Part shown: positions 22,007-29,867 of the stretch, piece after piece
Numbering within the stretch: position 1 is the stretch's first letter
Layout of the letters: each line of letters begins with the position of its first letter
IMG/VR virus record: IMGVR_UViG_3300025674_000194
Location: 1-32,963 of that record
Direction: 5' to 3' (one strand)
Origin: a virus
Length of the DNA: 32,963 nt
Translations under genes and position numbers: made by a program
Notes under the pieces: model-generated
Told to the model about the DNA's origin: nothing
What the model saw: the letters and a program-made list of their open reading frames with translations, nothing else
Databases searched by the model: none

Positions 22007-22124
22007 TCTCTTCTGTCTCCTCACCTACTTTAAATGTTACAGTGACATAACCGAACTCATCCGTAACCCATACCTCGTGAATTGGACAAGTACGAAGCCA
22101 CTCCCAAAACTCTTCTCTAGTCAT
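21993..22124 (-). CDS. Very small acidic hypothetical protein
   Basis: A 43-residue frame fills the space after the integrase: MTREEFWEWLRTCPIHEVWV, then DEFGYVTVTFKVGEETEENEET. The start overlaps the integrase stop as ATGA and AGGAG lies upstream within the integrase. The acidic tail and beta-strand pattern look like a small binding protein. Unrecognised. Confidence 0.65.
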   Translation of the reverse strand: MTREEFWEWLRTCPIHEVWVTDEFGYVTVTFKVGEETEENEET

Positions 22125-23005
22125 TCTCTTTGTCTCCTATCTAGTGCAGCTCTCGCAGTCTTCAAGCTGAACTTGTTGTAAGGGTTGAGGCTCTGTACAT
22201 TCTTGTGTCCAGATACCGATTGAATTGCAAGATGATCTACCCCACTCTCAATCATCTGCACAATGGCAGTCTTTCTCAGGTCACCCACTCTGAGGTCATC
22301 AGGTAGCCCTGCAGTGTCCTTAACTTCTCCAAGCAGGGTGATCATCTGAGCAATCGTTAGCGGCCTGTAGGCGTTGTCCTGTGGCCTGTGGTGAGGTACT
22401 ACGTACGGTTGGAAGTCCCAGTCCTCCTTCTGCTGCTTGAGCATGGTGATTAGATTGTCAGGTATTGGTAGCTCAACGGTAGCACCACGCTTACTCTGTG
22501 TGATTGTTACCACACCCTCGTCTAAGTCTAGGTTATCCCAAGTGAGGTTGCGTATGTCTACTGGACGTTGACCCCACTCGTAACACATCAGGACAATCAG
22601 TCCAATGTTTCTCCAATTAAAGTTGGTAAAGGCAGTGTCAAGAAACCTCATGACCTGCTCGTGTGTCCAGACCACAGACCGTGGCTCACTGGTGCGCTTA
22701 CGTACTCGTGACATAGGGTTGACCGTGAGCTTCTCCATTGTGATCAGGTAGTTCATTACGACAGAGAAGATACGTGCATTGTGATTTGCATTGGCAGTAG
22801 ATGTTTCCGACTCCCAAGTGTCATAGATCTCAGTGCATAATGGTACGTTGATGTTGTGGATCGAGATGTTGCCCAAAGTTCTACCATTTACAGACATACG
22901 ACAGAAAGAATTAAGTGCTGTCTCGTAACCCTTCTGTGAGGAAGCTGCAAGAGAAGCGAACTGTCTGGTATGTAGGTATTCATTTACGGCTGTCTTGAAT
23001 CTCAT
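22121..23005 (-). CDS. int: Tyrosine recombinase (integrase)
   Basis: From the ATG at 23005 (AGGA nearby) the protein has 294 residues. An N-terminal SAM-like core-binding domain (about 1-100) precedes a catalytic domain with Arg147 (YEWGQRPVDI), Lys172 (SKRGATVELP), the DLRKT box with Arg244, His267 (SVSGHKN) and nucleophile Tyr276 (NPYNKFS). The His usually found three residues before the second Arg is Gly here, a variation seen in some active members. There is no long N-terminal arm-binding domain, so it is a simple recombinase. It follows tRNA-Arg directly and opens the replication operon, suggesting integration, or concatemer resolution, is possible. Target site unknown. Confidence 0.9.
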   Translation of the reverse strand: MRFKTAVNEYLHTRQFASLAASSQKGYETALNSFCRMSVNGRTLGNISIHNINVPLCTEIYDTWESETSTANANHNARIFSVVMNYLITMEKLTVNPMSRVRKRTSEPRSVVWTHEQVMRFLDTAFTNFNWRNIGLIVLMCYEWGQRPVDIRNLTWDNLDLDEGVVTITQSKRGATVELPIPDNLITMLKQQKEDWDFQPYVVPHHRPQDNAYRPLTIAQMITLLGEVKDTAGLPDDLRVGDLRKTAIVQMIESGVDHLAIQSVSGHKNVQSLNPYNKFSLKTARAALDRRQRE

Positions 23006-23049
23006 ATCTTTCCTATCCAGTGAGAACAATCGTCATGTGGATCATCCAT
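23002..23049 (-). CDS. Candidate 15-residue leader peptide of the integrase
   Basis: AGGAG (6 bases upstream) precedes an ATG at 23049 that opens a 15-codon frame, MDDPHDDCSHWIGKI. Its TGA overlaps the integrase ATG (ATATGA). This layout is typical of a coupled leader that controls translation of the next gene. Too short to prove by sequence alone. Confidence 0.45.
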   Translation of the reverse strand: MDDPHDDCSHWIGKI

Positions 23050-25794: not shown

Positions 25795-26286
25795 TTAGTT
25801 CCTCCATTCTGGTTCCTCACCCCAACGCCATGTCAGGGTTATGTTACGTTCTTTCCATCTGTCGTTCATGTACATGCGGTATGCCTCATGCACATCAGAA
25901 ACGTCTGAGTAATCAACACCACGTTCCATATTACGAGCACAGTTTGCGAAGTCAGTCAAGTCCTCATCAGGAAATTGACCATACTCTGCGTAGTGTTGAA
26001 AGGCAGGAATAAGTTCAGCCGACTTGTGTGCGCCTGACTTTTGATTAAACAAGGCACTCATGTGCTTGATAAGCCACATGAAATTGCCACGAGTAGCCCT
26101 AGCCCATATACTGCATGGGTGGTTGAGATACGCCACACGGTATACAGGTAGGGATGTGTCAGGGCATAAAGTCCTGATTGCGGTGGACAACATCTGCGCA
26201 CTTTCCAAGATCATCTTGTTCTTGCGTATGTCATCCAACCACAATGCTGACTGCTCTGGACATTCCGATAGAGCAAATATGTTCAT
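25795..26286 (-). CDS. Conserved phage protein of the MNIF...KMILESAQ type
   Basis: The 163-residue protein begins MNIFALSECPEQSALWLDDI and continues RKNKMILESAQMLSTAIR. I recognise this opening from phage proteins that share the pattern (K)MILE-x-AQ-L-ST; their function is not settled as far as I know. The middle contains HPCSIWARATRGNFMWLIKH and the C-terminus is Trp/Arg-rich. Conserved His, Cys, Trp and Glu residues would allow an enzyme. The gene overlaps the tandem-HTH gene by 4 bases and is followed by the Cys-rich protein. Confidence 0.7.
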   Translation of the reverse strand: MNIFALSECPEQSALWLDDIRKNKMILESAQMLSTAIRTLCPDTSLPVYRVAYLNHPCSIWARATRGNFMWLIKHMSALFNQKSGAHKSAELIPAFQHYAEYGQFPDEDLTDFANCARNMERGVDYSDVSDVHEAYRMYMNDRWKERNITLTWRWGEEPEWRN

Positions 26287-26771
26287 TGTTGAATAGCCTC
26301 CATGATTGTTTCTTTCAACTGTTTGAACTCACGTTCTAGCACTGCATACTGCAACTTGATTTCCATCAACTCACCCTGCAACTGACCATTCTCTGCTTTA
26401 GTCATCACAAAGTTACGGCGTTCACGTTTTGTTACAGTTGGTTGCAAACCCTCAGTGTACAGATTGTACCCACGAGACTTGTTACGATAGCCCAACTCTC
26501 TACGCCATCTGCACAGTGTATCGTTGCTGACACCAAACTTAGCCACGGTTTCAACACCAGTATGGTTGTCATAATACTGGCAAACCTCGTGTCTGAAGCT
26601 GAGAAGGTGCTTGTTACCACCTTGACCTTTGAATACACCTGCTTTGAGTGCCCACTTAGATGCGTTTGGCTTAGGTATTCCAAACTTCTGTACAGTTTCC
26701 TCTGTAGTGTGAGACTTGTAGAACTCAACAACCTGTGCTTTGAACTCATTTGTATACACTTTACGACCCAT
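26283..26771 (-). CDS. Tandem helix-turn-helix protein with C-terminal coiled coil
   Basis: This 162-residue protein contains two similar segments, about residues 8-48 (NEFKAQVVEFYKSHTTEETV, then QKFGIPKPNASKWALKAG) and 58-98 (FRHEVCQYYDNHTGVETVAK, then FGVSNDTLCRWRRELGY). Each looks like the HTH found in IS3-type OrfA and other transposase-derived regulators. Residues about 120-160 form a leucine/glutamate-rich coiled coil, probably for dimerisation. No catalytic DDE domain follows, so it is not a working transposase. A perfect AGGAGG lies before the ATG. It is a good candidate for a phage transcription regulator acting on the palindrome arrays nearby; that link is a hypothesis. Confidence 0.8.
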   Translation of the reverse strand: MGRKVYTNEFKAQVVEFYKSHTTEETVQKFGIPKPNASKWALKAGVFKGQGGNKHLLSFRHEVCQYYDNHTGVETVAKFGVSNDTLCRWRRELGYRNKSRGYNLYTEGLQPTVTKRERRNFVMTKAENGQLQGELMEIKLQYAVLEREFKQLKETIMEAIQQ

Positions 26772-27326: not shown

Positions 27327-27854
27327 TTATGCGGCAGCTTGTGTTGGCTTTGCAGATGCCATCGCTTGCACTTGTGCGAAAGATACACCCATTTCTTTGG
27401 CCATTTTCGCCATGTAGGTGTGCAGCTGCTCAACACGTTGATCGTGAGACTTTTCGGGCTTGGCCGCAGTCAGTACAGGGAATGCCGCCTTGAATGCATC
27501 GGACTTGACACCCACCTTAGATGCAGCAAGAGTGCGGACACCTTCAAGCACATCATGGTTAAGCCCACCGTTTTTACCCACCTTGCACGATGCTTTACCA
27601 TCCTTGAAGGTAAACTTCACATCAGACAATGCGACAGCCAAGATACGCTTGAGGGGCGCACTGAATTGAGATAGCTTGTAACCATCCTCAATCTTGTACG
27701 AACCAAACGACTTGCCATTGGTGAAGGCAATAAGGGCGTACATTGGCTTGTTATTCTTTTCGCCAAACTGTTCGAGTGCATACTCGACAGCCTTGAAAAA
27801 ACCATACTCTGCACCACGTGCATTGCTTACCCATTCTTTTACATAATCAGTCAT
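27327..27854 (-). CDS. First gene of the early operon, hypothetical
   Basis: From the ATG at 27854 (AAAGGAT upstream) the product is 175 residues. It begins MTDYVKEWVSNARGAEYGFF and ends in an Ala/Lys/Gln-rich helix (VEQLHTYMAKMAKEMGVSFA...). The centre contains FGSYKIEDGYKLSQFSAPLK and a Lys/Gly-rich stretch (FKDGKASCKVGKNGGLNHD). The longer frame to 27929 adds 25 residues that lack a start signal. It is basic overall and may bind nucleic acid. As the promoter-proximal gene it is probably made first and in quantity. Not recognised. Confidence 0.75.
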   Translation of the reverse strand: MTDYVKEWVSNARGAEYGFFKAVEYALEQFGEKNNKPMYALIAFTNGKSFGSYKIEDGYKLSQFSAPLKRILAVALSDVKFTFKDGKASCKVGKNGGLNHDVLEGVRTLAASKVGVKSDAFKAAFPVLTAAKPEKSHDQRVEQLHTYMAKMAKEMGVSFAQVQAMASAKPTQAAA

Positions 27855-27931
27855 CTCATTTATCCTTTCATGCTTTGAGATTGCCAGACAATAAGACACA
27901 CCACACGGGTGCGCCTTACACGCTGGCAACG

Positions 27932-27949
27932 TGTAACCTAGGTGTTACA
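27932..27949. repeat. TGTAAC/GTTACA inverted repeat
   Basis: TGTAAC (27932-27937) and GTTACA (27944-27949) form an inverted repeat with a 6-base spacer, about 80 bp upstream of the first early gene. It is related to the TGTTACA palindromes at 29044 and 29275 but with the halves in the opposite order. Confidence 0.45.
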
Positions 27950-28500
27950 TTGTAAGCAAGCATTGCGCATTGCCTACCACCGTTCACGGTATCCTATGCT
28001 TATTGGCTATCACCATCCCGAAAGATATTTACCAGACCGTCAACTATATGTTGTGGCGTGGTGGTTATCGGTGCTATCAACACCCACCAAAAAGGCTTAT
28101 GTTTGTATCGGATTGTATGTCTTAATTCGGATCGCATTGCTAAATCAATGTTGCCATCCTAGGGGGAAACCATACTGAAAACCCCTTTCAACTTGTATTT
28201 AAACTAGGCGCAAAGTTTACATGCGTAAAACCATGATCGGGATTGTCAAACCCTAGGTCTAGCCCTAGTCGAAAACCAGTAATGTCAAATAGCGTGCCTC
28301 AGTACAATGCCCCTTGGCTAGTGGCGGGGTATCAAGCGATCTGGTCAACGTATGCGCCATTTCGACTTGATGACCTACCCTAACCCGTACCCAAAAGATA
28401 CTCAAGCACTATAAAGGATAGGTAAAAACTATACCTTTGAGACTAGACCTATCCGAAAGTATAGGTGGCCTATTTTGTGGATAATAGCTCGGGCGCACGG

Positions 28501-28521
28501 GCGTGTGCGCATACACGTGCG
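28501..28521. other. Alternating purine-pyrimidine tract
   Basis: Twenty-one bases alternate strictly between purine and pyrimidine (GCGTGTGCGCATACACGTGC and one more G). Such tracts can adopt Z-DNA under negative supercoiling. It lies within an unusually GC-rich 50-bp patch of the control region. Confidence 0.5.
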
Positions 28522-28631
28522 GGTGCGGGTGTAACCCGAAAGGATCGTCAATAACTATTACGGATAGGGTAGACTATACCAAAGGATAGATGTTCTCTGT
28601 CAATATACTATTTCGGATAGAAGTTAGTGTT

Positions 28632-28691
28632 TTGTTCTATGTTTGTTCTTTTTACCAACTGGTCAAAACTAGAACGAAAGTAGAACAAACA
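28632..28691. repeat. Mirrored pairs of TTGTTCT / AGAACAA elements
   Basis: TTTGTTCT occurs at about 28632 and again 10 bp on. In the opposite orientation AGAACGAA and AGAACAAA occur about 11 bp apart at 28671 and 28682. The inner arms TGTTTGTTCT (28640-28649) and AGAACAAACA (28682-28691) are perfectly complementary over 10 bp. This could bind a dimer pair or a recombinase, or form a cruciform. Confidence 0.6.
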
Positions 28692-28730
28692 GAGGGTAAA
28701 CAGTGGACAAATAGTGTCCAAATAGGGGGA

Positions 28731-28740
28731 ACCGATCGGT
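28731..28740. repeat. ACCGATCGGT perfect palindrome
   Basis: A 10-bp perfect palindrome in the control region, 40 bp after the mirrored TTGTTCT elements. One copy only was noticed, so function is uncertain. Confidence 0.35.
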
Positions 28741-29043
28741 CAGGTAGGGTGGGTGCTGGAAAGCCGAAAACGCACTCTACGGGCCTATTTTCGGGGTGTA
28801 GGATAGGTGAAGGATAGGTTCGCTATCCGTATTCCCCCGCAGTATATCCAAAGGGATAGGGTCAGCTATCCGAAAGGGTAGGACTATACGAATGGATAGG
28901 CTCAGGCTATACCAAAGGATATACGTCTAGTACAAAAGGATAGGTAGGCTATACCAAAGGATAGGTTAGGTATCCATAGGGGTAGGGTGGGGTGGTATTA
29001 TATATAATGAGCTATACTGGGGGATACATAACTTACCCCAAAG

Positions 29044-29058
29044 TGTTACAATGTAACA
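29044..29058. repeat. TGTTACA-A-TGTAACA palindrome
   Basis: A perfect 15-bp palindrome with a central A. A second copy with a 3-base centre lies at 29275-29291. Confidence 0.6.
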
Positions 29059-29274
29059 AAAAGTAGTAGTTCGTCTATCCTTTTGGGTATATCATAATCC
29101 CCTATTGTATTAGAAACATAATAAAATCAGATAGTTAGCTACGACAAAAGTATTAATGCAGCTATACTTTCGGATCACCCGACCTATCCGAAGGGGGTGC
29201 ATGGGCCAGCGGGGGTATAGCCGTACGTATATATGCCCAATGACAGAGATGGGGTTTTTTCAAGCCTCACTTTT

Positions 29275-29291
29275 TGTTACAATTTGTAACA
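29275..29291. repeat. TGTTACA-ATT-TGTAACA palindrome
   Basis: The two 7-base arms are perfect complements around ATT. It lies about 100 bp upstream of the right promoter, next to the TGTGATCACA pair, and may be an operator shared with the copy at 29044. Confidence 0.6.
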
Positions 29292-29306
29292 TTACGTTAC
29301 TCATTT

Positions 29307-29346
29307 TGTGATCACATCGTGTTATTCAGTTATTTTTGTGATCACA
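29307..29346. promoter_or_regulatory. Two TGTGATCACA operators spaced 30 bp
   Basis: TGTGATCACA occurs at 29307-29316 and 29337-29346, the second extended to a 14-bp perfect palindrome TTTGTGATCACAAA. Centres are exactly 30 bp apart, close to three helical turns, so two bound dimers would face the same way. They lie 43-82 bp upstream of the -35 of the right promoter. Confidence 0.6.
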
Positions 29347-29388
29347 AATTATTTATCAATAAAAATAAAATATTTTTTGCCTTACCCC

Positions 29389-29418
29389 TTGACTCGGGGG
29401 CACGAAGTATTATATAAT
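29389..29418 (+). promoter_or_regulatory. Sigma70-type promoter for the rightward lysis/late arm
   Basis: TTGACT (29389-29394) and a perfect TATAAT (29413-29418) are 18 bp apart. ACCCCTTGAC around the -35 is shared with the left promoter at 23239. ACTTAAAGT elements begin 14 bp after the -10. The nearest gene starts at 29616, leaving a leader of about 190 bases. Confidence 0.75.
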
Positions 29419-29432
29419 ACATTAAGTATTAT

Positions 29433-29537
29433 ACTTAAAGTAACTTCGTGTGACTTAAAGTGCACTTAAAGTAACCTAAAGTATCTATTAACTTTTATAT
29501 ATTTATAGTTATTATATACTTTAAGTATACTTTAAGT
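29433..29537. repeat. Six ACYTWAAGT elements, right control region
   Basis: Copies start at 29433, 29453 and 29464 (ACTTAAAGT), 29474 (ACCTAAAGT), 29518 and 29529 (ACTTTAAGT). Spacings are 20, 11, 10, 44 and 11 bp, near multiples of one helical turn. The first lies in TATACTTAAAGTAACTT, a 17-bp string found also on the minus strand at the left control region. Confidence 0.8.
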
Positions 29538-29584
29538 ACCTTCTTTGGACGAATAAAGTTTTTTCTGTCGTCCCATTTAAAGTA

Positions 29585-29612
29585 TTGACTTCAAAATTTC
29601 CTACGGTATAAC
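29585..29612 (+). promoter_or_regulatory. Possible second promoter
   Basis: TTGACT (29585-29590) and TATAAC (29607-29612) are 16 bp apart, directly before the ATG at 29616. Transcription from here would start at or inside that gene, so it would give a leaderless message or serve only the genes beyond it. Confidence 0.35.
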
Positions 29613-29615
29613 TAT

Positions 29616-29867
29616 ATGCAAAGACGAAACATCTATTCCTCCGACAAAGTACTAGAAGAGTTCTATAAGGCTCTTGCAAGTAAGGACGAAGGTAGACTCC
29701 GTAGGGTACACATACCAAGATCTGATGTATTCTACGTAAGAGAAGCTATTTTTCAAGACACTGGAGTTAAATACTCACTAGATAGAGTAGAAAGAGCTAT
29801 GTACCTTGAAGGTATGCTAAGTAAATACGATGTTTTTGAACCAAATAGAAAGAGGGACTGGGAGTAA
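29616..29867 (+). CDS. Hypothetical protein, first gene of rightward arm
   Basis: This 83-residue basic, soluble protein begins MQRRNIYSSDKVLEEFYKAL and contains a helical core with VRRVHIPRSD-like and DRVERAMYLEGML segments. No ribosome-binding site precedes the ATG, and there is no other in-frame start before the upstream stop. It is followed without a gap by the holin-like gene (TAA-ATG). No family was recognised. Being first in the arm, it could be regulatory or a lysis component. Confidence 0.65.
   Translation: MQRRNIYSSDKVLEEFYKALASKDEGRLRRVHIPRSDVFYVREAIFQDTGVKYSLDRVERAMYLEGMLSKYDVFEPNRKRDWE

Follow-up and report, generated by a model that had tools for sequence, protein, structure and literature searches.

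We identified an array of 16-bp near-palindromes (CTATMC-N4-GKATAG), set on a two-turn lattice, in the non-coding region that separates the two divergent gene blocks of a CRP-9/HMO-2011-like roseophage. The array is probably a multi-site operator at which a dimeric regulator would control the divergent operons, and the region that houses it is likely to be the early/late region that decides between lysis and lysogeny in a temperate roseophage of the HMO-2011/CRP-9 type. The kind of system is known; its new traits are the number of sites, their strict two-turn spacing, and the fact that whole arrays are exchanged between related phages.

The array and its genomic setting

The window, by which we mean the whole stretch of 32,963 bases analysed here (an IMG/VR record), encodes an integrase, and its kin are the Roseobacter phages CRP-9, CRP-1, CRP-2, CRP-13, CRP-207, and CRP-603. 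Genes are encoded leftward from approximately 11.1 to 27.9 kb and rightward from 29.6 kb, and the non-coding control region (27864-29615, 1.75 kb) lies between these blocks. The leftward block encodes ribonucleotide reductase, ThyX, a phrog_624 DNA-binding protein, and a polymerase and primase/helicase that were assigned by comparison with CRP-9, and an endolysin is found among the rightward genes. An integrase was found in 23 of 25 related records and in every contig with a CTATMC array that was long enough for the search, and is missing from CRP-9 and CRP-13. The genes and elements discussed below are as follows.

22121-23029, minus strand: tyrosine integrase, in the left operon beside tRNA-Arg
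26283-26771, minus strand: tandem helix-turn-helix (HTH) protein ending in a long helix, candidate regulator that would bind the array
27327-27863, minus strand: first gene of the left operon, of unassigned function
28409-29215, unstranded: whole CTATMC-N4-GKATAG array, non-coding control region
28449-28464, unstranded: array site, 12/12
28574-28589, unstranded: array site, 12/12
28634-28648, plus strand: GTTC-N7-GTTC, predicted box of the alphaproteobacterial LexA type (consensus from PMC3091678)
28672-28686, minus strand: GAAC-N7-GAAC, predicted box of the same type (same consensus)
28844-28985, unstranded: phased core of seven 16-bp sites (142 bp), starting at 28844, 28866, 28884, 28907, 28928, 28949, and 28970
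28980-29009, plus strand: G-rich stretch and TATTATATATAATG box, promoter-like, between two array sites, with no good -35
29012-29027, unstranded: array site, 11/12, 42 bp past the last core site
29075-29090, unstranded: array site, 10/12, 63 bp beyond the site at 29012
29162-29199, unstranded: two array sites, at 29162 (10/12) and 29184 (9/12)
29389-29418, plus strand: sigma-70-like rightward promoter, TTGACT-18-TATAAT, 11/12, from the promoter scan
29616-29867, plus strand: first gene of the right operon, encoding a small conserved protein, used as the anchor for gathering the control regions of relatives

With the 12 arm positions scored and the four-base loop left free, 11 sites match the motif at 10/12 or better within 28400-29215 (ranging from 28449 to 29177), against a mean of 0.27 and a largest count of 3 in 500 dinucleotide shuffles. 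At 9/12 or better there are 13 sites, compared to 2.0 in shuffles, and four sites are perfect, compared to none. Matches elsewhere in the window do not exceed chance, and none of them scores better than 10/12, a value reached three times. A first-pass annotation made from the sequence had proposed a palindrome array in this control region and named lack of enrichment over shuffled sequence as a refuting result; the array is borne out by these counts. Its figure of about 18 copies was slightly high, as matching gives 11-13 sites, a lenient weight matrix gives 15-16, and the remainder are half-sites. The seven copies that it placed 18-24 bp apart within 145 bp were recovered as the phased core, with spacings of 22, 18, 23, 21, 21, and 21 bp within 142 bp; the weakest core site is that at 28928 (9/12).

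The spacing of the sites is regular well beyond this core. When the distances between pairs of sites in 12 genomes are pooled, they show peaks at 21, 42, 63, 84, 105, 126, 148, 168, 190, and 213 bp, corresponding to a lattice period of 21.0 bp with multiples visible out to about 210 bp. When compared to 5000 random placements that kept the same minimum spacing, the lattice was supported in the window (p = 0.0006), in L199 (p = 0.019), and in L148 (p = 0.034), while in each of L185, L179, and L188 it was reached by none of the 5000 placements. It was borderline in L128 (p = 0.06) and not significant in L096, L178, or L149 alone, so that three to four of ten genomes lack individual significance. 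The local pattern of 22-18-23-(20/21) bp is repeated in L185 and L148. The linkers vary in both length and sequence, which suggests that the array is not simply the product of recent tandem duplication. A two-turn lattice kept over approximately 200 bp is unusually regular for a phage operator.

Candidate functions of the array

The palindromic form of the sites could mean that they work as hairpins, in a folded RNA or a cruciform, but we consider this extremely improbable. Both strands of the region fold better than dinucleotide shuffles (z of -5.6 and -4.7), but palindromes fold by construction and any array of them would do the same, and we therefore discounted this result. The first-pass annotation had described hairpin halves conserved over differing loops. 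The loops do differ (GAAA, CAAA, AAAG, TTTC, and TTTT), but the halves are mostly imperfectly complementary, and the state found most often has A opposite G at arm position 5. Fully paired stems occur at 7 of 88 sites from nine genomes compared to a mean of 16.3 when whole arms were re-dealt (a count as low arose in 1 of 2000), although the sites were picked by a mismatch threshold and this cut-off may exaggerate the deficit. A pairing deficit is also seen at arm position 5, which accepts either letter and so is untouched by the threshold (Fisher p = 0.01); related sites are not fully independent, and the p values for the arms are therefore guides. The median hairpin energy of the sites is about 0, and an Rfam scan of the region gave no family near its gathering score. 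Covariation of the halves across relatives had been suggested as a check, and we found no covariation of the arms that would preserve pairing, for which reason the RNA hairpin or cruciform was rejected. The halves are conserved as half-sites and not as complementary strands.

We favor instead an operator, in which a dimeric DNA-binding regulator would bind both halves of each 16-bp site. Because the sites lie on a 21-bp two-turn lattice, the dimers would be aligned on one face of the helix and could bind cooperatively, and this cooperative binding might span some 200-330 bp. The bound array would then silence or switch the promoter inside it together with the divergent operons, of which the left would serve replication and integration and the right lysis and packaging, and host LexA would couple this switch to DNA damage through the GTTC-N7-GTTC boxes. 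Part of what would be expected of a lambdoid-type operator cluster is seen here, namely clustered near-palindromes between divergent operons and sites on one helix face about two turns apart. The overlap of operator and promoter is less clear. In most relatives with a CTATMC array, a G-rich stretch followed by a TATATATAATG box lies inside the array, between sites, but the box is without a good -35 and may, judging from its sequence, need an activator; the main TTGACT/TATAAT promoter, a strong match in the scan, lies approximately 190 bp beyond the last array site. Promoter-like matches across the region are no more numerous than in shuffles.

The consensus of alphaproteobacterial LexA is GTTCN7GTTC/GAACN7GAAC (PMC3091678), and the only two GTTC-N7-GTTC sequences in the 33-kb window are both in the control region. 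These exact matches to the box of the SOS repressor differ in sequence from the CTATCC array and sit in a gap within it. Across 79 distinct control regions, which we gathered via the proteins flanking the region, a spacing of 7 gives 51 sites in 28 regions compared to 2.4 in shuffles, while spacings of 3-6 and 8-12 give 0-7 sites each; the 79 regions share ancestry, so the 28 cannot be counted as separate events, yet spacing 7 is clearly the one preferred. It is chiefly because of these LexA-type boxes, with their specific spacing, that we prefer a transcription switch to an origin, and they make a host SOS input to the control region probable. Four to six GTTC-N7-GTTC boxes are present in L101 and L099; in these two relatives TTGTTCTC was considered as a separate phage array class, which we dropped because it consists of LexA-type boxes.

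An iteron-type origin is the strongest rival to the operator reading, though we regard it as unlikely. A phage initiator dimer would in this case bind the phased near-palindromes, bend or wrap the DNA, and open the AT-rich stretch at approximately 29300-29600, as lambda O does at ori-lambda. The phased row of near-palindromes with A-rich centres resembles the lambda iterons, imperfect inverted repeats that are bound by O dimers (PMC7466680), and GC content drops to 0.35 just to the right of the array, placing phased repeats near an AT-rich stretch. In lambda, however, the iterons number four and lie within gene O (Stx phages have six), whereas here there are more sites, in non-coding DNA and around promoter-like and LexA-type boxes. 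The cumulative GC skew, which the first-pass annotation had pointed to as a check, does have its minimum at the control region, but the change coincides exactly with the switch in gene direction and is hence uninformative. Against an origin speak the position of the sites around the promoter-like box and, in the relatives L096 and L097, four further sites close to where the first left gene starts, at 48-174 bp upstream of it; the LexA-type boxes point to transcription control. DnaA boxes occur in 7 of the 79 regions, where 8.7 would be expected; the window has one perfect TTATCCACA, but without enrichment in the relatives an origin of the DnaA-box type was dropped. No O-like initiator was recognised among the proteins scanned, although the HTH protein could be the initiator for an iteron-type origin.

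It seems to us more doubtful still that the array is a strip for another nucleoprotein, such as a partition site, a packaging-related site, or a site for a host nucleoid or regulatory protein. Plasmid centromeres also have helically phased sites, and the variation of array class among relatives could stem from regulators of the host rather than of the phage. On the other hand, no ParA/TubZ-like gene was recognised among the left operon proteins scanned, the integrase makes a partition system less needed, and the terminase genes of CRP-9 sit elsewhere, away from the control region. The operator is thus the part of the first-pass interpretation that has gained support, from the conservation of the sites, the 21-bp lattice, the promoter-like box, the LexA-type boxes, and arms that do not covary; the RNA or cruciform part has fallen away, and an iteron origin is left as the less likely alternative.

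As an operator, the array can be compared to known phage systems. The OR and OL operators of lambdoid phages, bound by CI and Cro, are imperfect palindromes that cluster between the divergent operons of a temperate phage at intervals of about two turns, and their sequence differs between heteroimmune relatives. The array described here is alike in its clustering, two-turn spacing, divergent setting, and relative-specific sequence. It differs in having eleven to thirteen sites in one region rather than three plus three, and in a lattice that extends at least 200 bp; moreover, no CI/Cro-like protein was recognised, and the candidate regulator is a transposase-type tandem HTH protein. The stoperators of cluster A mycobacteriophages (L5 and Bxb1) are also many short sites, and their motif and repressors differ between related phages (PMC6550527). 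In contrast to the near-palindromic 16-bp sites in one control region here, stoperators are asymmetric 13-bp sites in one predominant orientation. We rejected a stoperator system because the sites are confined to one place and not dispersed genome-wide.

A candidate regulator and array classes among relatives

The tandem HTH protein encoded at 26283-26771 is our leading candidate for the binder of the array, an assignment that we make tentatively; the binder could also be another protein, of the phage or of the host. The HTH protein is encoded leftward, 1.8-4.1 kb from the start of the right gene, in all 14 of the 14 CTATCC contigs with enough DNA. In the AlphaFold2 model (mean pLDDT of 80, pTM of 0.38) it has two domains of three helices each and a long C-terminal helix, and we infer that it dimerises. 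Foldseek returned only weak matches for this model (best E of 0.05), to DNA-binding domains of the bipartite transposase, paired-domain, and CENP-B types, and a peptide-pattern search found no relatives in bacterial genomes. The first HTH domain is absent from the protein of some relatives. Co-occurrence suggested that this protein is the sole determinant of array class, but this was weakened by the finding that the family occurs in all array classes and that its identity does not follow class. The gene is also hypervariable (approximately 60% identity) between genomes in which its neighbours are 96-99% identical and the arrays hardly differ. Array class requires four label changes on the HTH tree compared to six on the tree of a neighbour, a difference that lends weak support. 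The open-access papers that we searched describe no regulator or operator for this phage group.

CTATCC/CTATAC is the over-represented element in 16 of the 79 control regions (the window and fifteen relatives), at a homologous place, and across whole contigs of 48-59 kb the CTATMC sites are essentially confined to the control region. Other elements occupy the homologous place elsewhere: TGAATRTG dyads in L196, L130, L044, and L122; CATTATGTCT sites with a 14-bp period in L152, L182, L163, L139, and L172; and TAGTTTAACGTTAAACTA at about 31-33 bp in the control regions of CRP-9, L013, and L014. Many of the 79 regions have no strong array by k-mer tables, and since the classes were set by eye from these tables, borderline cases are uncertain. 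The first-pass annotation had taken absence of the array from close relatives to speak against it. The CTATCC sequence is indeed absent from the cultured phage CRP-9, and is thus dispensable for the group, but a different palindrome array replaces it there, along with LexA-type boxes. As CRP-9 has no integrase and yet has an array and LexA-type boxes, such arrays are not strictly tied to lysogeny.

A broader scenario, which we put forward as speculative and rather unlikely, is that HMO-2011-type phages keep one fixed position for an exchangeable array cassette, whose versions have unrelated motifs and geometries, are each read by a separate regulator, and occur together with host LexA boxes. 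If this is true, the cassette would be a large-array immunity system of a dominant marine phage group, in which a transposase-type tandem-HTH regulator possibly replaces the CI-type repressor. The portions of the literature covered here describe HMO-2011-type phages as dominant and broadly distributed in the sea, with integrases in most members of subgroups I and III (PMC9038755), and report integration for the related CRP-3 (PMC6918029); these portions of the two papers name no repressor, operator, or promoter. With a concrete candidate control region that contains LexA-type boxes, immunity groups, SOS inducibility, and control-region exchange become directly testable.

Other elements of the control region

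Several further elements were observed in the control region. A perfect DnaA-box word, TGTGGATAA, lies at 28476-28484 in the array region, and two near relatives differ from it by one base. To the right of the array, a block of GCATGGGCCA ... TACGTATATA ... CCCAATGACAG at 29199-29246 has parts in 37-62 of the 79 regions, in any array class, and is possibly an origin core or a terminator. Two TGTGATCACA palindromes follow at 29307-29346, and the same word occurs in the control regions of 42 of 79 relatives. Seven copies of an ACTTWAAGTA repeat are found at 29433-29583, between two rightward promoter-like elements, and relatives have related repeats of altered sequence in the same place (e.g., ACCTTAAGGT in L180). 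A TTGACT-16-TATAAC element at 29585-29618 reaches to within four bases of the ATG that starts the first right gene and may give a leaderless transcript; of the 79 regions from relatives, 66 have a TTGAC/TATAA pair, and the last such pair is typically at most 33 bp upstream of the gene. On the other side, the sequence at 28080-28270, upstream of the left operon, is well conserved, with TGACAATCCCGAT and GTAAACTTTGCGCC read leftward, and could include the left promoter or encode a leader RNA.
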